Positions 1,413 through 27,930 of a stretch of 64,000 nt of DNA are shown one piece after another. Within the stretch, counting starts at the first letter, position 1. Each line of letters starts with the position of its first letter. Under the pieces are notes generated by a model, which saw only the letters and a program-made list of their open reading frames with translations, ran no database searches and was not told where the DNA came from. The position numbers and the translations under genes were made by a program. The DNA comes from Branchiostoma floridae (taxonomy: Eukaryota; Chordata; Leptocardii; Amphioxiformes; Branchiostomatidae), in contig NC_049979.1 of the NCBI RefSeq assembly GCF_000003815.2, forward strand, positions 34,192,459 to 34,256,458. The letters run 5' to 3'.

Positions 1413-1419
1413 GTAATAG

Positions 1420-4400
1420 ATGACTGGAACCAAAATAGATGACATGGAACAACGATTTACAATTGAGCAGTTCAACCTGCTGACCCGTCTAATGTCGATT
1501 GGGGAGAGACTTCAGCAGACGGGATTGCCGTGGGACAACATGTTCCAAACCCTCTACACAATGCAGCAAAGCTATCGTCTGGGGTATGTTTGTCGGGACT
1601 CTCAGAATTCAACATTCTTTTCGATAACAAAAACTCTTTTCTTTGATTGTCGTGATGTTTTGGATCTTTGAATTAGGATTTTAGAGGCATTAATTAGAGT
1701 ATTAAGATATCAAATTAGTACCTCCTAAACTCGCGACAGTAATAGTTTTCATTGAAAAATGTAGCTTTTAGATGTCTTCCTCGACTTCCTCTAGGTATGT
1801 TTCCCACGTTCGGTGCAGTCACGCTGGTGGCTGACGAGCCCAATGCGTGACAAACAGAGTCGGTCGCAGTTGGTACTGTGACGTTTCGGGTTTTCCTTTT
1901 ACTGCGCTACAAAAGCAGCTTTGCGGTTCTCTTCAAAGATCGAGACTGACTGGTTTACAGTGTGTCGTAAAGCCTCTCGTTCAGCAGCAAGGACTGACCA
2001 ACAGTGATGGTCGATGTGGCAAGAAGACAGAGTCTTTGAATCCTTTCTTTGGTGCTCCTCTGTGGCGGTGACCAGTGGAGAGTTCGCCGTAGAGGACAAT
2101 TTTTGGCAGACGATGATCCTCCAGTCTTAAGACGTGGCCTGCCCAACGCAACTGTGTTTTCATCAGGGTGGCCTTGATGCTGGGGATTTATGCTTGCTCA
2201 AGAACTTCAACATTGGTGTTGTAGTCACTCCAGTGCTTTAATTAGGAAAGACCGTAAACAGCGTTGAGAAAACCGGTCTAGGAGCCACAGGTGGTGTCTG
2301 TAAGTGACCTATGACTCCGAGCCATACAGAAGAGTCTTCAGTACCACGGCTCTGTAGACGCTGACTTTTTTTTTAGCTTTCTTCAGGTGCTTATTGTTCC
2401 AAACTCTGCTGTGGAGACTGTCAAAGGCACTGCTTGCTTTAGCTAGTATATTGTCAACCCCCTTGTCGATTATTGCATCAAAGGAAACTGTGCTCCCCGG
2501 GTAAGTGAACTGGTGGACTGGCTTCAGTTCTGATTAGTCAATCATGATGCTGGGACACCTCCTTTGTTGCTGTCTGGTGGAGAACATCTGTCTTTTTATC
2601 AGGCTAATTTCAAGACAAAAGAGCCTGGCTGCCTCCACAAAGCAGGAAGTTACACGCAACATGACAGCCTCCATTTGAGTCACAAGGACGGCATCATCAG
2701 AAAGAAGAAGTCCCCGTATAAGTTGTTCTAGGTCTTGGTGCGGGCCCGTAGTCGTCGCAAGTTGAACATGCGTTCTGCAACGGCAGGTACCTGTCTGTTT
2801 AGGAGAACTCTTGCAAGTATATTTCCTGGGATGGTGAGAAGATTTCTCCCCTTGTAATTTGTCTTTTTTACCCTTTATTTTTGTACAGGGTAATGATGAC
2901 AGGGTCTAGTAGGTCTTGTGGTAGTTTACCCTGCTTCAAGCTTAACACAAAGAGTTTATGGAGTGTGATGTCTAGTGCAGCACCTCCGTGCTTCCAGATT
3001 TCAGGCGGTTTGGCATCTAAATCTGCAGCCTTTGCACTTTTTTTTTCTTCTGTAGCTGTCTTGGTCTCCTCGTGTGTTAACGTTGGTACTTAGTCCAGCT
3101 CTTATAGCATGGGCTGCTGAGGGATCCGCTGGAGTGCGGAGTCATTGGTAGAGCGGTATGTGCTTAAGAGGATTTGGAAGTGTTCTGCTCAGCGGTTAAA
3201 GATGCATGCCTTATCTGTAAGGAGAGCTTTGCCATCAGCACTGCCCAGAGGACCTTCAGGGATTCGTGGAAACATCTATAGTTACCAGAATCAGCAGAGC
3301 AGCGTTTTCTCAGCGAGGCTGCCCTGTTATGAGCCGGTGGTAAGGCTATTGATAAATTGTAAATAACTAGCCGCACACTAGACATTTTGAGGAGCACATG
3401 GTTTATTGTGTCCTTTCTCCAGGATTCTAGCACCAGAATGAGGTCACAGGATGAGGTCACAGGACTAGACTACTTCTAAAATAGGGGGGTTTGGGTAGGA
3501 GTGATCACACGGTTCACAGTGGTTCATAACATGCCCCACCACTGGTTCTGCTTGATTCTTAGCTTGCGCTGTAGGTCGCTAGATGAAAAGCGGAGGGCAA
3601 TTTTCTTTGCAGGACAGGAGGATGAGCCTGGTGGGCACTGCTCTTTTTTGCTAGCAGCTGTTGGATTTCTTCTTTATTTTCCTCGAACCAGTCCTTGTTT
3701 TTCCTTGAGGTGAAGCCCAGAACTTCTTTATATACTGAGAGGTGGCGGTCTTTAAGTGAGCCCAGAGGGTTTCAGGANNNNNNNNNNNNNNNNNNNNNNN
3801 NNNNNNNNNNNNNNNNNNNNNNNNNNNNNNNNNNNNNNNNNNNNNNNNNNNNNNNNNNNNNNNNNNNNNNNNNNNNNNNNNNNNNNNNNNNNNNNNNNNN
3901 NNNNNNNNNNNNNNNNNNNNNNNNNNNNNNNNNNNNNNNNNNNNNNNNNNNNNNNNNNNNNNNNNNNNNNNNNNNNNNNNNNNNNNNNNNNNNNNNNNNN
4001 NNNNNNNNNNNNNNNNNNNNNNNNNNNNNNNNNNNNNNNNNNNNNNNNNNNNNNNNNNNNNNNNNNNNNNNNNNNNNNNNNNNNNNNNNNNNNNNNNNNN
4101 CTGACTTCAGACCGCCGACCTGAAGTTTCTTACTGGGTGGCCTACTCGTTTTGGTTTGGGCTTGAAGTAATGGTTGAGTTTGTATCGCACAAGGCGGTGA
4201 TCAGTGTGACATTCTGCACTGAGCATCCCTGAAGTCTCGTTGGCGCCCTTTGATGTAGTCTGTAAGATGCCAATAGGGCAATGTGTGGACCGGGGATGTA
4301 TCCAGGTTGTTTTAAATGTGTGATTTTTTCTGCTGGGAGATGGTATAAGTGATGGGTATATGCAGTTATACACAGAACAGGAGACGCCCATTACCGTTGC

Positions 4401-7400
4401 AGTTTTTCCGGAATGGCCGTGGCCAATGGTTATTTTCCTCAGCGGTCGCAGAAATGGGAAGAATAGTGGCTTCACAGCTGCATCTAAAGGTGTGAATGGA
4501 CTAAGACTAGCATGCTGGAACATGCGGACTGTGCTGAATTCAGCAGACAGTAATTGCCCTCAGCGACGCTCTGCTCTAGTCGCAAACGAGCTCTCCCGAC
4601 TGAATATTGACATTGCCGCCCACAGTGAAGTCCGATTCCAAGACTCGGGCAGTCTCACGGAGCAGGGCGCAGGATACACCATTTACTGGTTAGGCAAGCC
4701 CTAGCCAGAGCCACGCCTTTCTGGAGTGGGCTTCATGAGTAAAAACAACTTAGCCTCCAAGTCGGAGAACTTACCGACAGGTCACTCTGACCACATCATA
4801 TCTATGCGACTGTCCTCGAGAAAGGGCCAATACGCAACCCTCTTCAGTTTTTTATGCTCTCAAAGCAGACCCTGCAGACAAGGACAAGTTCTACACAGAC
4901 TTGCGCACCCTAGTGCGGAACGCCCCAGTAGACGACAAGGCTCTCGGCGAATTTAATGCTAGAGAGGGCCGAGATTAAAAAGCCTGGAAACACGGAGTTT
5001 AGATGATACACGTTATAACTATACATTAAATATCGAACTCACATAAACTTATCAGATTTCCAGTGTGTTGTATCGTAAATAAAGAAATTCATGGCCTTTT
5101 AGACATTGATCGTTTGGATAGAAAATCTGACTTATACAATATCTCAAGATGCCATCTGGCCAGGTGAAGCGTCTGTTTTTAAAACCATATGCATATCTTG
5201 TCGCTTAATTTTTGGCGTATAACAAATCTCTGGAATTTTCGACTGAATCACTGTGTCTTTTTCAGATAGCTTACCGAATAGCACTTAACTTATGGATTGT
5301 ATCTCGTGCGACAAAAATAAATAAATTGCTGTTTAGTCGAAATCGACACCAATCCGTGTTGACTGAGAAAATGTAATCACTACTTGTATAGTCAAACCTT
5401 TTCAACCATGAATTCACCCCATGCTGTTGCAGGGAGAAACTGCCTGCCTTAGGAACTGGACCAGAGCCCTCAGTCACACATAAGCAGCTCATCCTGCTGA
5501 CCCGACAGTTGTCGATTCATCAGAGTCTTCAGCAGACTGGTCTGTCAGGAACAGCATCTTACGCATCATCTGCACCATGCAGCAAAACAAAACCGGAAAC
5601 ATCGATATCGACGGTATATGATTGAAAGTTTTGCAAATCTGACATACTTAACCCTATCCAGACCGGGGGTGGGGTGGGGGGGTCGTTACTGTAACACAAT
5701 CAGTAGATTTCTAGCGAGGACACGCCTTTAAGTCGATTCGTTCACATGCAAAGTGCCAAATTACCACGTACTGATCTAGTGGCACGCGAGGGACAGGAAT
5801 GAATAGTCCACACCTATTGTCTGTTGATTAACGATTTTTCGTCGAGCTTCCTTTCTATAGTTTGCTAGTTATTTGGAGTTGAACGTTGTCTTTCATAATG
5901 CAGTAAAGCCGCATTCTTATATTGTAAGTTAGAACTGCGTACCATGATCCCTTTACGTTCAATTTTCGAAATACAACTAACGTTACAAGGTATGTATGAA
6001 GACTGCATATTGTCAGCACGGCCTCTCTTACATTTGTTTCCTTTTCACAGACGAGTTTATAGCGGTCACCAATGAACAAAATAGTTTCCGCAAACGGAAA
6101 CCAAGTGCTACATTAGTAGTATAATTAGCTTTTTACTCTGTATATAATGATATTTGATAATTTTGTATATAATCAATTCTGTGTATAATTGTCACCGAAT
6201 TGTATATTCATGTCTACTGACTTTTGATGTCTAATGCTTATTGTTTGATTTGGTTTCGTATTGTTTTCTATTATCATTTCAGGTTTGGGAGGACAACTTG
6301 TAAAGGTGTTGATACACCTGTTTTGTCCTCCCTTCCACTTATTTTTGCATGTGGTAAATTCAAGTAAAGAAATATAGAAATAAAGGAAAGGTATGTTACA
6401 AAAATTAAGCGGCAACTGCAGATAACAGAATACTATTTTTTACGACTTGTATTGCCATAAGCAACATATTAACTGCAAAATAACGTCATACATTTTTGAA
6501 GCAAATAATCGCAAAAGTCAATAAAATTGTATAAAAACGTACATTTCAACTTTTTTTTATAAAAAAAAGTACCAGGTCGTTACCACTTTTAAGGGGAAAA
6601 TATACCCACTCTTAGTAAAATGGTTCGCCATTTAGGAGTCGGGACGATGACCTTATCAGATTCACACAATGTTAATTATGAAAGACATTCCAGAAGACAT
6701 ATGTAAGAAAAAAAGATTGATATGGGGAAAATACATTGTTACAACTGTAATTGGCCATTTTGGTCATCAAACTGTTGGAATTGTGAAAAAACTTAGGGAC
6801 TTAATGCCGACTAGATTTTAGAAAACTTACCATGGAAAGACATTACCGGATCCAGAGTANNNNNNNNNNNNNNNNNNNNNNNNNNNNNNNNNNNNNNNNN
6901 NNNNNNNNNNNNNNNNNNNNNNNNNNNNNNNNNNNNNNNNNNNNNNNNNNNNNNNNNNNNNNNNNNNNNNNNNNNNNNNNNNNNNNNNNNNNNNNNNNNN
7001 NNNNNNNNNNNNNNNNNNNNNNNNNNNNNNNNNNNNNNNNNNNNNNNNNNNNNAGAAGTTGGATGATGAATAATTCCAAAATTTGCGGGACCAATCGCAG
7101 AAGAGGAATTTGAGGGAGAGGTGGACAGGCTAATGAGGTAAACTATTAAGATTTGTTGATAATATGGTTTACGCAATGATAGACGTATGTCATCTCGATT
7201 TGATAACATGGCTGACATCCTCTAAGAGCGCGCAAATAAAAGTGTCTAAATGTTGCATTTTAGAAAGAAACCTAAGTGGTCAGGAAGGAGAAATAAAGGA
7301 CTTAACACAAATAGTATCATGCACTAGTGATAAGGTGTACCATTAAATCGTACCAGCAAAAACTTTCTCTTCTTGGATCGGCCGGAAAAATACCCTTAAT

Positions 7401-10400
7401 GTTTTAGAACGGGTTTCGCCGATAAGCAAATATACTTATTATACTAACAGGCATTTATGGGGATTTGGGGCTTTATAGTCATTTGTACCAAGTCTCTACA
7501 GAAAGGTACTGGTAAGTTAGCCTTTTTTACATGAAGATGGGATTTTAAAACGTCCAGATTGCTTTTATGCAATAATCTAATAATATGTTTCACTTTAAGG
7601 AAAGATACGATGGACTTAAATGCGGAAATCAAGACTTTTCTGCTAAATCATGAAATCCTTCAAGAAGCCGTGGCGACAGAAATCGGCGTCAGCAACAGCT
7701 CCGTGTCAGTATTTCTCAAACATGGCTGGGGTCTGAACACTAGCAAGAGAAGAGCTCTTTATACTTGGTACCTTCGCCAGAAGCATACTGAACCAGAGAT
7801 GTCAGGTGCCGTATCAAACTGTCTAAGATTGTTCTTCCATGTCTTGGTTGCTGCCACCATGTAATTAAATTCAACATCAATTATTCCTTCGACGATATCA
7901 TATTGATCACTGCAGCCAAAACTGAACCTGGCACCACAGCTTATGAAAATGCAGAACGCAAACAAATTATTTATTGCAATATATTCAACTTTTGCATAAC
8001 CACGATAGATTATCATTGTTTACCTCTCATCAATTGGGCCTCGGTATCTGCCTCTAAACCGACTGTCATGTTTACTCTGATGTTATCGACGTAATACTAG
8101 TGAACAGCCTTGAATTCAATTGCCTGGTGGCAGTGAATAATGACATTTTATCTTTAAGATTTCATAGTCAATAATCTAAAGTTTACGGGTTTAATTAAAA
8201 TATCACGTTCATTGCATGACAATTGTATTATTGGGATTCATAGAAACATGTTGTATTATGCTGTCCTAACGCTTTAAGGCACCGTTAAGTTTAGTTGACC
8301 TATACAAATATACACGAGAATGGGGGAGGGGGAGGGGGGGGGGGGGTCAAGGCAGGGCCATACCGATTTACATGCCGCATAACGCTCGAACAGATTACGC
8401 TAGAGACACAAAATCTAGTAATTTTTTCGACAAATTTCGTTGGCAATAATTTCACAAAGCGTGTCACGGCTGTTTACAGGCATTTTTGAAAACAATGCTG
8501 ATTTCGATTCTAACTTATGTTTACTGTCTCCATTACAGCTATCTAATGACTGGAAATACATTATGCAATTTATTTTACATTTTATGATAATAATTAAATT
8601 GCGTTAATTAAATGACGTCCTGACCAAAATAGCTGCCGAATAAATTTCAGGAAGAGTAAAAAATCTACCGAAAATAATTTTATCAGGTTGGGAGATAATC
8701 CTTATCTGTATCTGTATCTATCTGTATCTGTATCTATATAGCCGGGATAACCACCATTCGGCGAAACACACCAGCTTCGCAGGCAAGCGGCGTGGCAGCA
8801 GCTGGTTATGTTACACTGAACGATCCGCCACACCTAACTTTTGCACATCTATCTGCAAGCGTTGTTTAAAGCTGTGCTTGGTGATAATAAATTCCACTCT
8901 ACGATAGTTCTGGAAAAATACGAATTTTTGAACACATCAATCCTAGCTTGGTAACTCTGGTACTTGAAGTCATAGCTGTTTCGTTTTTTTTTTATGATCT
9001 GGTGACGGAGCATAGGACATAGGAATGTTCTTTTACACAACGAGTTTTTCTCATCTGCTGACGTTTCGATGTCTGTCAGACATCTTCCTCAGACCTTGTA
9101 GCTGCAGTTCTGCTTCTCGCCGCTATATGTAGCCGATGAAGATGGCGCTTTTGCGGCGAGAAGAACAATATCCCATACGTGGCTCAGCTTGTATCCCCCT
9201 TCGTCCCGGTTTATCACTGGGGTGGACTTCCTTATCCAGACTGCTTCTCTGCAGGCACGATTTCTTGTCTTCTTTCTGTGCTTGTCTTTTCTGGGACCTA
9301 GTGTATTTGGTAGTGTTCAAGTTGTCGGCCTCTTTCTTGTGTTCGTTAAGTCTAGTCCAAAAAGTCCTTCCTATCTCCCCTACGTACACCTCCTCACAGC
9401 TCTTACAAGGAATCCAGTATACACAGTTTACACTATACAATAGTCAGTTTGGGCTAGGTCCGGTAGCTTGTCTTTCGGGTGCACTAGCAAGCTTCTCAGT
9501 GTTGTTTTGGGGTTCACTGCTGTTGACACATTGTGTGTTTCCTGAACACTCTCTCCAAGGGCTACGTCACTCCCTTAATGTATGATGAGATGACCTTGCA
9601 TCTAGCCTTCTCTACTTGTTTCTTACTGTTCTTTTTCTGTTTTGTCCTATTCTTCTGCTGTTCCACACTCTTGAATATCCACTGAAGGTAGCCACAACGT
9701 GCCAGTGCCCTCTTGACGTGCTGTACTTCTAGCTGTTGGTCCGGTTCCTCCGTGATCACAGCGTTGCACCGGTCTAGTAAAGTGCGGATCACTCCAAACT
9801 TCTGGTGCAGTGGGTGGTGGGACTGAAAGCTGGGGTACTGGTCTGTGTGTGTGGCTTTCCTATAGACTAAAATCTTGACTCTACCACCCCTTTGCGTACC
9901 AAGAGGGTGTCGAGAAAGGGCAGGGAGCCATCTCTTTCTCCTTCATATGTGAACTGACGGTCGACTTGGTTCAGACGGTCAGTGATCGACCGTCAGTGTG
10001 CTGTCCTACACCCCCCTCTTTACAATTTCCCTCACGTCATCCACGCATCTTTTCCAGAGTCTGGGTCTACATGTGATAGGTGCTTAGGTGATTGCTTGTT
10101 TCTACAGCCACTCCATGAACAAGTTGGCTAACACAGGAGACATCAGGCTATCCATTGCTGTTCCAAACTTTTGCTGGTAGACCTCCCCCCTGAACATGAA
10201 GTATGTTGTAGTGACAATAAAGGACAAAAGTTCAATAATGTCATCTACGTCCAGGTTGGTCCGGCTCCGGAAGAGGGATACCACATCATGGGACAAAAAC
10301 ATCAGAATGGACTTTCCAACCAACGGTGCTAACAGGTCTGCTAGAGATCTGGACGTGTTGTAACCTATCGACCCCGTGTAGTCAACTATGGGGCGCAGGG

Positions 10401-20400: not shown

Positions 20401-21321
20401 CATCTTACAGACACGGTAATTACAAACACACAGGTTCTGAGAAAAACATAGGATTTTCTCAAAACCGTGCAGTATAAATCTTTCAGACACAGCTATTAAA
20501 AACACACAGGTTTAGATTAAAAAAATATCTTACAAACACGGGTTTTTCAAACAAGAATTTCCCCAAAAAAAAGAGATTTTTTTTCGGATTTTGCACTTTA
20601 CTTGTCACACAAACAGCAATTACAAACACACAGTTTACGAGAAAAAAAGACGATTTTCTTTTAACCTTGCACTTAACATCTAACAGACTAGGCTGTTACA
20701 AACACACAGGTTTCGAGATTAAAAAAAATAATTTTTTTTCCAAACCCTGCATTTTACATCTTACAGACAAGGCTATTCCAAAGACCCAAGTTCCGAGAAA
20801 AAAGGTAGGATTTTCCAACTCTAACAACTTATATCTTACAGACACGGATATTGCAAACACACAGTTTCAGAGTAAAACATTACATTTCATATTGTACAGA
20901 CACTGCTTTTACAACTATACAGGTACCGAGAGAAACAATGGAGAATTTTTTTTTTAAATCTTGCACTTTACATCTTACAGACAAGGCTTTAACAAACACA
21001 CAGATTCTGAGAAAGAAATAAAAAAAGCATTTTGTCAAAACCTTGCAGTTTAAATCTTTCAGACACGGCTATTAGAAACACACAGGTATTAGGTGGAAAA
21101 AAGATGAATTTTTTTTCAAATCTTGCACATTACAAATTAAAGACACGGCTATTACAAACACACGAATTACGAGAAAAAAAGGGGATTTTCTTCAAACCTG
21201 CACGTTACATCGTACAGACACGGATATCCAAAACACACAGGTATCGAGAGAGAAAAAAAATAAACTTTTTTTTTTCAACCCTTTACTTTAGTACATCCTA
21301 TAGACACGGCTATTACAAAAA

Positions 21322-21560
21322 NNNNNNNNNNNNNNNNNNNNNNNNNNNNNNNNNNNNNNNNNNNNNNNNNNNNNNNNNNNNNNNNNNNNNNNNNNNNNNN
21401 NNNNNNNNNNNNNNNNNNNNNNNNNNNNNNNNNNNNNNNNNNNNNNNNNNNNNNNNNNNNNNNNNNNNNNNNNNNNNNNNNNNNNNNNNNNNNNNNNNNN
21501 NNNNNNNNNNNNNNNNNNNNNNNNNNNNNNNNNNNNNNNNNNNNNNNNNNNNNNNNNNNN
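21322..21560. other. Assembly gap (N) in satellite
   Basis: A run of 239 N inside the array. Confidence 0.99.
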
Positions 21561-24188
21561 GAGAAAAACATAGGATTTTCTCAAAACCGTGCAGTATAAA
21601 GCTTTCAGACACAGCTATTACAAACACACAGGTTCAGAGTAAAAAAAAACATCTTACAAACACGGGTTTTTCAAACAAACAATTTCCAAAAAAAAAAGGA
21701 GAATTTTTTTCGGATTTTGCACTTTACTTATTTCACACACAGCAATTACAAACACACAGTTTACGAGAAAAAAAAGACGATTTTCTTTAAACCTTGCACT
21801 TAACATCTTACAGACACGGCTATTCCAAAGACCCAAGTTCCGAGAAAAAAAGTAGGATTTCTTCAAATCTAACAACTTACATCTTACAGACACGGATATT
21901 GCAAACGCACAGTTATCGAGAGAGAGAAAAAATAAGCATTTTTTCAAACCGTTTACTTTTGTACATCTTACAGACACGGATATTACAAAAACACAGGTAC
22001 CGAGAAAAAAAATGATTTTCTCCTAAGAACACATTTTCCATCTTACAGACACGACTATTACAAAGATCCCGGTTCTTCGAAAAAAAAAAAATTCTCCAAA
22101 CCTTACGTTACGTTTTTTACAGACACTGCTTTTATAATTATACAGATTCCGAGAGAAACAAAGGAATATTTATTTTTAAACTTCGCAATTTACATCTTAC
22201 AGACACGGTAATTACAAACACACAGGTTCTGAGAAAAACATAGGATTTTCTCAAAACCGTGCGGTATAAATCTTTCAGACACAGCTATTAAAAACACACA
22301 GGTTCAGAGCAAAATACATCTTACAAACACGGGTTTTTCAAACAACAATTTCCCCAAAAAAGGAGATTTTTTCGGATTTTGCACTTTACTTGTCACACAG
22401 ACAGCAATTACAAACACACAGTTTACGAGAAAAAAAGACGATTTTCTTGTAACCTTGCGCTTAACATCTAAAAGACTAGGCTGTTACAAACACACAGGTT
22501 TCGAGATAAAAAAAATAAATTTTTTTTCAAACCCTGCATTTTACATCTTACAGACACGGCTATTCCAAAGACCCAAGTTCCGAGAAAAAAAGTAGGATTT
22601 TTCCAAATCTAACAACATACATCTTACAGACACGGATATTGCAAACACACACAGGTATCGAGAAAGAGAAAAAATAAGTATTTTTTTCAAACCTTTTACT
22701 TTAGTACATCTTACAGACACGGCTATTACAAGCACACAGGTATCCTGATTTTTTAAAAAATTAGCTTTTCTTCCAAATCTTGCTCCTAATTACATTTTAC
22801 AAACACAGCGTTTTCAAACACACAGGTTCCGAGGGGAAAAACGGAGGCCTTTTTTTCAAATATGGCACTTTACATTTTACAGACACGGCTATTACTAACA
22901 CACAGGTTCCGAGAGAAAAAGACGATTTTCTTTAAACCTTGCACTTAACATCTAACAGACTAGGCTGTTACAAACACACAGGTTTCGAGATAAAAAAATG
23001 AGATTTTCTCCAAACCCTGCATTTTTCATCTTACAGACACGGCTATTCCAAAGACCCAAGTTCCGAGAAAAAAGGTAGGATTTTACAAATCTAACAACTT
23101 ATATCTTACAGACACGGATATTGCAAACACACAGTTTCAGAGTAAAACCTTACATTTCATATTGTACAGACACTGCTTTTACAACTATACAGGTTCCGAG
23201 AGAAACAAAGGAGAATTTTTTCTTTAAATCTTGCACTTTACATCTTACAGACAAGGCTTTAACAAACACACAGATTCTGACAAAGAAATAAAAAAAGCAT
23301 TTTGTCAAAACCTTGCAGTTTAAATCTTTCAGACACGGCTTTTAGAAACACACAGGTATTAGGAGAAAAAAAGATGAATTTTTTTCAAATCTTGCACATT
23401 ACAAATTAGAGACACGGCTACTACAAACACACAAATTACGAGAAAAAAAGGGGATTTTCTTCAAACCTTGCACGTTACATCTTACAGACACGGATATCAA
23501 AAACACACAGGTATCGAGAGAGAAAAAAATAAGCATTTTTTCAAACCTTTCACATTAGTACATCTTACAGACACGGCACAGATCCATGTTCCTCGAAAAG
23601 AAATGATTTTCTTCAAACCTTACATTACATATTTTACAGAAACTGCTTTTGCAATCATATAGATTCTGATGGAAACAAAAGAAGATTTATTGTCAACCCT
23701 TGCAATTTACATCCTCAGACACGGTTATTACAAACACACAGGTTCTGAGAAAAAAACATAGGATTTTCTCAAAACCGTAGAGTAAAATCTGTCAGACATG
23801 GCTTTTACAAACACACAGGTTTAGAGTAAAAAAAAAAAGAACCTTGCACTTATTTACATCTTACAAACACGGCATTTAGAAACAAACATGTTGCAAAAGA
23901 AAAAAAGGAGATTTTTTCGGATTTTGCACTTAATATCTTACAGACAAAGCCATTACAAACACACAGGTTTGGAAAAAAAAAGACGATTTTACATTTTACA
24001 TGCATTTTACATCTTACAGACACGACTATTCCAAAGACCCAAGTTCCGAAAAAAAGGAAGGATTTTTCCAAATCTAACAACTTACATCTTACAGACACGG
24101 ATAATACAAACACAGAGGTTCTGAGAAAAAAAAAGGATGTTCTGCAATCCTTACAGACACTGCTCTTACAAACATATTTCAAAAAAAC

Positions 24189-24799
24189 NNNNNNNNNNNN
24201 NNNNNNNNNNNNNNNNNNNNNNNNNNNNNNNNNNNNNNNNNNNNNNNNNNNNNNNNNNNNNNNNNNNNNNNNNNNNNNNNNNNNNNNNNNNNNNNNNNNN
24301 NNNNNNNNNNNNNNNNNNNNNNNNNNNNNNNNNNNNNNNNNNNNNNNNNNNNNNNNNNNNNNNNNNNNNNNNNNNNNNNNNNNNNNNNNNNNNNNNNNNN
24401 NNNNNNNNNNNNNNNNNNNNNNNNNNNNNNNNNNNNNNNNNNNNNNNNNNNNNNNNNNNNNNNNNNNNNNNNNNNNNNNNNNNNNNNNNNNNNNNNNNNN
24501 NNNNNNNNNNNNNNNNNNNNNNNNNNNNNNNNNNNNNNNNNNNNNNNNNNNNNNNNNNNNNNNNNNNNNNNNNNNNNNNNNNNNNNNNNNNNNNNNNNNN
24601 NNNNNNNNNNNNNNNNNNNNNNNNNNNNNNNNNNNNNNNNNNNNNNNNNNNNNNNNNNNNNNNNNNNNNNNNNNNNNNNNNNNNNNNNNNNNNNNNNNNN
24701 NNNNNNNNNNNNNNNNNNNNNNNNNNNNNNNNNNNNNNNNNNNNNNNNNNNNNNNNNNNNNNNNNNNNNNNNNNNNNNNNNNNNNNNNNNNNNNNNNNN
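24189..24799. other. Assembly gap (N) in satellite
   Basis: A run of 611 N inside the array. Confidence 0.99.
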
Positions 24800-26190
24800 A
24801 CGGCTATTACAAAGACCCAACTTCTGAAAAAAAGGTGGATATTTTCCAAATCTTACAATTGCATCTTACAGACACGGCTATTGCAAACACAAAAGAAAAC
24901 CGAGAAAAAGATGATCTGTACCTTACATTTTCAATCTTACAGACAAGACTATTACAAAACACACTTTTCGAGAAAAAAAGAGGACTTTCTCCAAACTCTT
25001 CATTTCACATCTTACTGGCTAGTATCTTACCAACACACAGGTTAGGAGTAGAAAGAAATGGAAGCTTTCCTGCACTCCCTACACTTTCTATCTTACAGAC
25101 ACGGCAGTAACAAACACACAGGTTCTGAAAAAAAGAAGATTTTCTCCAAACCCTGCATTTTACATCTTACGGACACGGCTATTATAAAGACCTAGGTTCA
25201 GAGAAGAAAAGGAGTTTTTTTTCCAAATCTAACAATTGCGTCTTACAGACGCAATTATAGCAAACACACAGGTTCAGAGTAAAAAAAAGGATTTTCCCAA
25301 AACCTTGTAGTTTAAATCTTACTGACACGGCTATCACAAATACACAGGTATTGAGAGAAAAGGGGAACTTCTTCAAACCTTACATTTCATATTTTACAGT
25401 CACTACTTGTACAATTATATAGGTTCCGAGAGAGAGAAAAAACGGAGGGTTTTTTTTCCAAATCTTGCACTTTACATATTACAAAAACGGCTATTACAAA
25501 CACTCAGGTTACGAGAAAAAATGACATTTTTTTTTTCAAACCATATATTTTCCATCTTACAGACACGACTATTACAAAGACCCATGTTCCGAGGAAAAAA
25601 AAGGATTTTCTCCAAACCATACATTTTATATTCTAGAGACATTGCTTGTACAAACACACAGATTCCGAGAAAAAAAGATTATTTTCTCCAAATCTAACAT
25701 TTTCAATCTTACATACACTGCTATCACAAAGACCGGTTCCGAGAAAAAAAGGAGTTTTTTTTTCAAACCTTTCACTTTTCAAAAAACAGACGCGAATATT
25801 ACAAATCTTTCATTAATTAACACACAGGTTCTAAGAAAAAAACATAGTATTTTCTCGAAACCTTGCAGTTCAACCTTGCACACACAGCTATAAAAATTAC
25901 TAGGTATCAAGAGAAAAAGAGGGAATTTTCTCCAAACCTTGAATTTTACATCTTACAGACACGGCTTTTACAAACACACAGGTTCAGATTTTTTTTTAAA
26001 AGGAGGCTTTTTCCAAACCTTACACTTGACATGTTACAGACACGTCTATTAGAAACACTTAGTTTCAGAGAAAAAACGGAGAATTTTGTCCAAACCTTAC
26101 ATTCTACATCTTACAGACACGGTTTTTCCAAACACACAGGTTCCGAGAGAATAAAGGAAGATTTTTTTCCAAACCTTTTACAACATCTTA

Positions 26191-27243
26191 TACCCCCTTT
26201 CCACTAGGACGGCGCTCTCGCGGCGCTCTCTCTGCGACCTCAAATTTGGAAGAGCGCGGTGAGAGCGCGGTGGGATCGCCAAGGTCGCCATGAGAGCGCG
26301 AAGAGAGCGCGGTGGGAGCGCCATGGTCGCCATGGTCGCCATCACCACCGCGACTGTTTTGAACCTGCTCAAAACAGTCGCCGTGAGAGCGCCGTGGACG
26401 GCGATCCAACGATGAGCGCAGAGAGAGCGCGCAGCGAGCGCCGTGAGCGCCAAGAGAGCGCACAGCGAGCGCGGTGAGCGCAATAGGCCTCAACAGTGGT
26501 TTATTATACCAATTTAGCTAGGACGGCGCTCTCACCGCGCTCTCTCTGCGCTCTCAACTGCGCAGTTTGTGAAGAAGTATATTTGACATAGACAGAAAGC
26601 GGAGAAATGTCCAAAATGTACCGGTGATGAACAATTCAACAAACTGAGTTGTAATAAGCAAGGTAAAAACAATGATTTATCATTTCTCAACTTATTTTCG
26701 AATTTCAACATGATGAAAATATGTGTTCTTGTTCTTCATCTGCACATTTAGATCATTTAAGTCCCATTTTCTATAAATTGATGTGTTTCAGTGTTGTGTG
26801 ACTTACACTAATAACGTTGCATGATACATTTATGCTGAACAAGCTACATGACAGATTTAAGAAAAAAACAGCAAGAGAAACGTGTATATTTCAGTCTGAG
26901 TGACTGTACAGTGACCAAAATTGGATTTGATTACAGCCCTGATTTTATACTTTGAATGTTATGTAACACGTAAAAGGATGACTTCAAAGATACCAAAATA
27001 CACTAAACCTCAAAAGATTCGTTCTTTATCTCTGAAATTCGTTGAGTAATCTTTCGAAACTTTGCTAGCTCATAAAAAGATGCTGACATTTGAGTTTTTC
27101 GTCGCGGTGAGAGCGCGCTGGTGTCGCCGGAGAGATTCCACTAGAGCAGCTTTTTCCGGCGTCGCGGCGCTCTCACCGCGCTCTGGCGAATTTTCCATCG
27201 CAGCGAGAGCGCCGTGAGAGCGCCGTCAAGTGGAAAGGGGGCC
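26191..27243 (+). mobile_element. GAGAGCGC-rich non-autonomous DNA transposon inserted in the satellite
   Basis: The left end is TACCCCCTTTCCACTAGGAC-GGCGCTCTC. The right end read inward is GGCCCCCTTTCCACTTGACG-GCGCTCTC, so the termini are inverted repeats. Satellite sequence resumes exactly at both edges (CATCTTA on the left, TAACAGACACGG on the right), which shows a later insertion with a TA-containing target. Both ends carry dozens of bases of clustered GAGAGCGC motifs in both orientations. The AT-rich middle has no coding frame. The superfamily is not certain. Confidence 0.75.
26350..26381. other. 13-bp perfect hairpin inside the inserted element
   Basis: GCGACTGTTTTGA pairs perfectly with TCAAAACAGTCGC across a 6-nt loop (ACCTGC). 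It interrupts the block of GAGAGCGC repeats. Confidence 0.85.
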
Positions 27244-27930
27244 TAACAGACACGGATATTTGAAACACACATGTTCCAAGAAAAAAAAGAGGATTTCTCG
27301 AAACCTAACATTTCACATCCTACAGACACAGCTATTACAAACACACGGGTTTGAGTAAAAAAAAGGGATATTCTCCTAACTTTATACTTCGCATCTTACA
27401 GTCATGGCTATCAAAAATGTAAGGTTCCGGAAAAAAAAGGAAGATTTTCTTCCAACCTTGCACCTAACATTTTACAGACACGGCCATTAAAAAGACACAG
27501 GTTCCCAGAAAAAAAAGGAGGATTTCTCCAAACCTAACATTTACATCAACAGCCACGTCTTTTATAAACACACAGGTTCCGAGAGAAAAAACGGAGGTTT
27601 TTTTTTTTACAAACCTTACACTTAACATCTTACAGACACGGCTTCTATAAACACACAGGTTCTGAAAGAAAAGAAGGAGGATTTTTCCCAAAACTTAATC
27701 TTTATATCTTACAGACACAGCTATTACAAACACACAGGTTCCACGAAAAAAAGAGGTTTTTATCCAAATATTAGAATTTTAATCTTACAAACATGTCTTT
27801 TATAAACATACAGGTTCCCAGAAAAAAATAGAGAATTTCTTTCAAACCTTAAGCCTTAGCTTATTTCTTTCAGACACAGCTTTTACAAACACAAAGGTTT
27901 CGAGAGAAAAACATTTTCGCAAAATCTGAT
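27244..27930 (+). repeat. Satellite array, continuation
   Basis: The same 75-80 bp monomer resumes after the inserted element, with diverged copies (for example ATCTTACAGACACGGCTTCTATAAACACACAGG). It fades out near 27930. Divergence at this edge is higher than in the core of the array. Confidence 0.9.

Follow-up and report, generated by a model that had tools for sequence, protein, structure and literature searches.

Four exons on the plus strand of the window, the whole 64-kb stretch of Branchiostoma floridae DNA that was analysed, join into a gene whose predicted protein is supported by sequence comparison as a member of the HNF class of homeobox proteins, with HMBOX1 as its nearest relative. 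Its homeodomain seems to keep the residues of the three-helix core, and the DNA-reading face of helix 3 appears to be devoid of contact residues, uncharged and largely hydrophobic. Tentatively, and with slightly less than even confidence, we read the locus as a real, rapidly diverged, lineage-specific Hmbox-like gene of the HNF class, in which the homeodomain would be a non-DNA-binding scaffold and perhaps part of a dimerising antagonist. All statements about helix 3 depend on the last exon, exon 4, which is the least secure of the four and the assignment of which is probable.

Exon 1 (1420-1583) carries the start codon and a putatively HMBOX1-type dimerisation-like segment with an insertion of seven residues, exon 2 (7600-7805) a POU-specific-like domain (HNF-1_N), exon 3 (10667-10888) the linker and homeodomain helices 1 and 2, and exon 4 (11847-11947) the end of the loop, the altered helix 3 (L48, D51, W53) and the stop codon. 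Joining them reproduced the earlier claim, made from the letters alone, of four exons with matching phases and a 230-aa product. The 693 nt encode 230 aa followed by a TAG stop, and introns 1, 2 and 3, of phases 2, 1 and 1, respectively, are all of the GT-AG type. The 5' untranslated end (1413-1419, plus strand) follows a splice acceptor ending at 1412 and presents two in-frame stops, TAA TAG, immediately 5' of the ATG. At the other end, the protein stops directly after homeodomain helix 3. An AATAAA at 12164-12169 on the plus strand, one of four such hexamers listed in 11948-14000, is a possible polyadenylation signal.

Splice sites were scored with a simple, general consensus matrix. Among GT sites of the first 20 kb, the donors of exons 1-3 fall at the 97.4, 89.3 and 93.6 percentiles. 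Acceptors of exons 2, 3 and 4 are placed at the 89.3, 88.0 and 98.3 percentiles among AG sites, and the acceptor ahead of exon 1 at the 99.0 percentile. The GC content at codon positions 1, 2 and 3 of the coding frame is 0.50, 0.37 and 0.57, and that of the three introns 0.43, 0.44 and 0.34.

The introns had been described as filled with transposons. This description is borne out in part by a stretch of intron 2 (9015-10523) that lies between inverted repeats 60 and 35 nt long (88% and 91% complementary) and is possibly Penelope-like; on its minus strand, a GIY-YIG match falls below threshold. The other intron ORFs scanned had no Pfam match above a curated cut-off. Downstream of the gene, the window contains a 30-bp tandem repeat in three near-perfect copies (13039-13127, 96% matches), an array of 246-bp units (16408-17087) and a long degenerate satellite comprised mainly of 75-84 bp units (17536-27910). 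In addition, three groups of ORFs with Patched/sterol-sensing-domain similarity were observed, at 35107-38428 (plus strand), 47249-51420 (minus) and 59590-63301 (minus). Groups 1 and 2 have the motif GIG[IV]DD in the sterol-sensing domain; group 3 (59590-61266) has SGLEAANRL there, and ASFSLEH at the place of GFSVDFS of group 2. Group 3 is possibly a second instance of key-motif loss in a paralogue within the window, and the start of its ORF may not be a true exon.

The exon 1 segment aligns with the N-terminus of HMBOX1 (provisional sequence) at a score that was equalled by 0 of 1000 shuffles. Its similarity to the HNF1A dimerisation segment is weak, with shuffles as good in 67 of 1000 cases in global and 150 of 1000 in local alignment. 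The seven-residue insertion is seen relative to the provisional HMBOX1 sequence and, in global alignment, also relative to HNF1A. Seven residues make about two helical turns, so that the insertion could extend a dimerisation-type helix without changing its register; it could also disturb the predicted dimerisation segment.

A search through the 64-kb window revealed a duplicate of exon 1 within intron 1 (5433-5613, plus strand; 78/105 bases, E 6e-13). Its acceptor and donor are retained at places matching those of exon 1, which supports the boundaries proposed for this exon. A one-base gap shifts the reading frame of the duplicate, and depending on which of its two homologous frames is read, the copy leaves with phase 1 or 0, whereas exon 2 requires 2. 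The duplicate was therefore ruled out as an alternative exon in either of these frames. Both copies contain the seven-residue stretch that has no counterpart in the provisional HMBOX1 sequence (1465-1527 and 5482-5544). Alignment of the duplicate to exon 1 is free of gaps across the insertion, thus making the insertion older than the duplication.

Membership in the HNF class and likeness to HMBOX1, both proposed in the sequence-only reading, are upheld by searches of Pfam and PDB and by the length of the loop between homeodomain helices 2 and 3, with the alignment of exon 1 tentatively in agreement. The Pfam search detected HNF-1_N at aa 54-114 (E 1.1e-15), together with a sub-threshold Homeodomain match of 17.2 bits against a cut-off of 22.9, limited to aa 165-191. 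In the PDB search, the HNF1A structures 1ic8 and 8pi7 matched at 3.4e-11 and the HMBOX1 structures 2cuf and 4j19 at 1.1e-5, the latter in gap-free alignments from aa 158/159 to 220 that span the junction of exons 3 and 4. The POU-specific-like part is about equally near to HNF1A (21/52 identical) and to HMBOX1 (24/57 with one gap, provisional sequence). The HNF class is marked by extra residues between homeodomain helices 2 and 3, which number 15 in HMBOX1 and 21 in HNF1 (excerpt of PMC2211742). Provided that exon 4 is correct, the candidate has such extra residues and has 15 of them, not 21: its loop is of HMBOX1 length, and the homeodomains align without gaps, with 20 of 73 positions identical. 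In viral_contigs and genome_contigs, 4 and 56 pattern matches, respectively, yielded no confirmed relative of exon 2.

The canonical DNA-binding residues W48, N51 and R53 are replaced, conditional on exon 4, by L, D and W, and the substitutions L215, D218 and W220 named by the sequence-only reading are borne out in the gap-free alignment to HMBOX1. The predicted loss of canonical DNA contact is in fact broader than had been claimed, again if exon 4 holds. The homeodomain residues H44, I47, L48, M50, D51, W53, L54 and I57 correspond to K, N, W, A, N, R, K and K of HMBOX1. We compared 12 core and 10 contact positions, which were taken from general homeodomain knowledge and chosen after the alignment had been seen. 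A position was considered conserved if its BLOSUM62 value against HMBOX1 was above 0, by which N51D and E55Q count as conserved. On this measure, 11 of the 12 core positions (8 identical) and 3 of the 10 contacts (1 identical) are conserved (Fisher 0.006), in comparison with 11/12 and 8/10 in the control pair HNF1A and HMBOX1 (Fisher 0.57). Within exon 4 alone the contrast, 4/5 core against 2/8 contact positions, is not significant (Fisher 0.10).

Contacts known from HNF1A were also inspected. Its homeodomain touches DNA through R203, K205, R263, N266, N270 and K273 (excerpt of PMC11382887), equivalent to homeodomain positions 5, 7, 44, 47, 51 and 54. Of these six residues, the candidate (S, K, H, I, D, L) keeps only the equivalent of K205, and HMBOX1 (R, T, K, N, N, K) keeps four. 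The POU-specific contacts of HNF1A in the same excerpt are Q130, R131, Q141, S142, H143, N149 and K158; aligned by eye, three of the seven are identical in the candidate (Q, E, N, S, S, K, K) and four in HMBOX1 (provisional sequence, also by eye). The homeodomain segment carries no net charge, as against +7 in HMBOX1, and helix 3 (42-58) has a net charge of 0, compared with +5 in HMBOX1 and +1 in HNF1A. Since helix 3 of HNF1A, the DNA-binding control, carries only +1, a charge of 0 is by itself a weak argument.

The altered helix could be a chance reading of a mis-assigned exon 4, the canonical helix-3 exon being hidden in an assembly gap or lost, and we consider this unlikely. The background for exon 4 consisted of AG sites, from either strand, that are followed by 24 open codons in the phase dictated by exon 3; sites near N were excluded. 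Among 2417 such sites, three match the HMBOX1 helix-3 segment at least as well as exon 4 does, as a chance reading would allow, and 44 have an acceptor as good, but none combines the two. Of the 32 phase-correct candidates no more than 3 kb from exon 3, only exon 4 has an acceptor that good; shuffled targets among these candidates reached its helix-3 score in 1.9% of 20000 trials. A variant of this test gave exon 4 the top score among 1247 plus-strand sites, and three better ones among 1177 minus-strand sites. GC content was dropped as an independent support because 17% of 449 local windows are as GC-rich as exon 4, which leaves room for mis-assignment. Gaps in which another exon might lie do exist downstream, the nearest at 13432-13730, but the assembly is gap-free between exons 3 and 4, and the canonical helix-3 pattern W[FY]xN[RKHQ]R does not occur in any of the six reading frames across the sequenced portion of the window. 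Furthermore, hhalign against a profile of HMBOX1 and HNF1A paired MTPAHVQILFMDR with VTSLKVYNWFANR (probability 95.7), with gaps placed in the loop and the register of helix 3 identical to that in the gap-free alignment.

With exon 4 accepted, the gene might still be in early decay, having lost selection recently, with a frame that is still open only by accident and helix-3 changes that represent damage; this we regard as somewhat unlikely. Part of the locus did decay, as indicated by the frame-broken duplicate of exon 1. A comparison of exon 1 with the duplicate yielded a dN/dS of 0.67 over 32 codons, which is not clearly below 1. The 25 differences are distributed as 8, 7 and 10 over the codon positions, and the excess at third positions falls short of significance (p 0.28), giving no clear sign of purifying selection. 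Decay would also be in line with the early stop, which removes any C-terminal region, and with the case of human SEBOX, a suspected pseudogene with altered N51 and R53 (excerpt of PMC2211742). On the other hand, 11 of the 12 core positions are still conserved, and an open frame would rarely survive neutral change of this extent. The 690-nt frame was simulated under neutral change, in 3000 runs per step with indels assumed at 0.1 per substitution and 80% of them frame-shifting. It stayed intact in 8.7% of runs at a divergence of 0.03 and in 1.4% at 0.05, with means of 0.7 and 1.1 of 10 contact positions changed. When divergence reached 0.2, 0.3 and 0.5, seven or more of the 10 contact positions had changed in 4%, 16% and 55% of runs, and at these steps the frame was intact in 0 of 3000 runs with indels, and in 0.5%, 0.2% and 0.1% when indels were ignored. 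On the presumption of a correct exon 4, rough rates, and an exon 4 that was not selected for its openness, neutral decay alone poorly explains the changes in this model. Taken together with the conserved core, the simulation suggests that the helix-3 changes were probably made mostly under frame constraint. Of re-purposing and early decay, between which the earlier interpretation had been left, the former is in this way favoured, and a recent loss of function following the helix-3 changes is possible. It is very improbable that the homeodomain binds DNA with an altered specificity, or that the POU-specific-like domain binds alone, in what would be an ordinary transcription factor. Such binding would agree with the retained R31 and K at position 7 of the homeodomain and with the POU-specific contacts shared with HNF1A, but the main contact residues are replaced by D51, I47, L54 and W53, and the protein has no region for activation or repression beyond helix 3.

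Under the preferred reading of a diverged Hmbox-like gene, the loss of DNA-touching residues suggests that the protein may act by pairing with related proteins instead of reading DNA. Its homeodomain would have given up canonical DNA binding to serve as a scaffold or a protein-binding surface. More speculatively, exon 1 might mediate pairing with partners of the Hmbox or HNF1 type, and the resulting dimers, with one defective DNA-reading half, might limit the activity of the partner, in the way that Id proteins restrain bHLH factors. By analogy, a dimerising antagonist or a protein-binding scaffold appears to be the likeliest role. Truncated HNF1A antagonises HNF1B, binding it through the dimerisation domain (excerpt of PMC8905088), and HOPX is a homeodomain protein unable to bind DNA (excerpts of PMC2211742 and PMC6800262). 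A narrower version, which we find rather doubtful, is that I, M, L and I at positions 47, 50, 54 and 57 around the acidic D51 make up a rebuilt hydrophobic protein-binding surface, in an Id-like dimerising inhibitor of Hmbox/HNF1 that would hold at most a half-site via its POU-specific domain. If expressed, the gene would exemplify how a transcription factor can come to regulate its relatives.

A single-sequence AlphaFold model (mean pLDDT 43.2, pTM 0.34) contains, besides two short strands, helices at 5-32, 39-53, 58-71, 73-83, 87-97, 102-116, 128-133, 162-172, 180-197 and 209-229. Helices 162-172, 180-197 and 209-229 of this low-confidence model lie at the places expected for homeodomain helices, and a mean pLDDT of 43.2 is too low for the model to count either for or against the proposal. 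To our knowledge, homeodomains that keep the core and drop DNA contact are rare, HOPX being one, and no example from the HNF class is known to us, the literature searches not having been designed to prove absence. A targeted literature search for the loss of homeodomain Asn51 gave no paper, and excerpts of PMC4901127, PMC4244043, PMC8113555 and PMC3141429 provided background, with nothing decisive here.

When set beside known systems, the candidate resembles Hmbox (human HMBOX1/HOT1) in the POU-specific-like domain and perhaps the exon 1 segment (both against the provisional sequence), in the homeodomain core and in the gap-free helix 2-3 loop. It differs in the replaced helix-3 contacts, the insertion in exon 1 and the stop directly after helix 3. 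HMBOX1 has over 100 residues beyond helix 3, and a long stretch separates its first two domains. With Hnf1 (HNF1A, HNF1B) the candidate shares the POU-specific-like domain, at the identity to HNF1A given above, and NPS at positions 25-27, but its loop insertion is 15 and not 21 residues, and exon 1 is scarcely like the HNF1A dimerisation segment. HOPX likewise has a homeodomain without DNA binding, a property that in the candidate is predicted from sequence, but it belongs to the PRD class and consists, with 73 residues, almost entirely of the homeodomain (excerpt of PMC2211742). Human SEBOX is altered at both positions 51 and 53, with W at 53 as in the candidate; it differs in having K51 rather than D51, in its PRD class and in the suspicion of being a pseudogene (same excerpt).

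The name Ahnfx, suggested earlier for the gene, was not found in the literature searched. Amphioxus Ahnfx would be an extra HNF-class gene, which is compatible with the counts of HNF-class genes listed in an excerpt of PMC5322547 (four in B. floridae, three in human and two in sea urchin). The candidate may already be among the catalogued B. floridae genes; if it is one of these four, the gene is known, and the analysis of helix 3 and the duplicate exon are the new part.
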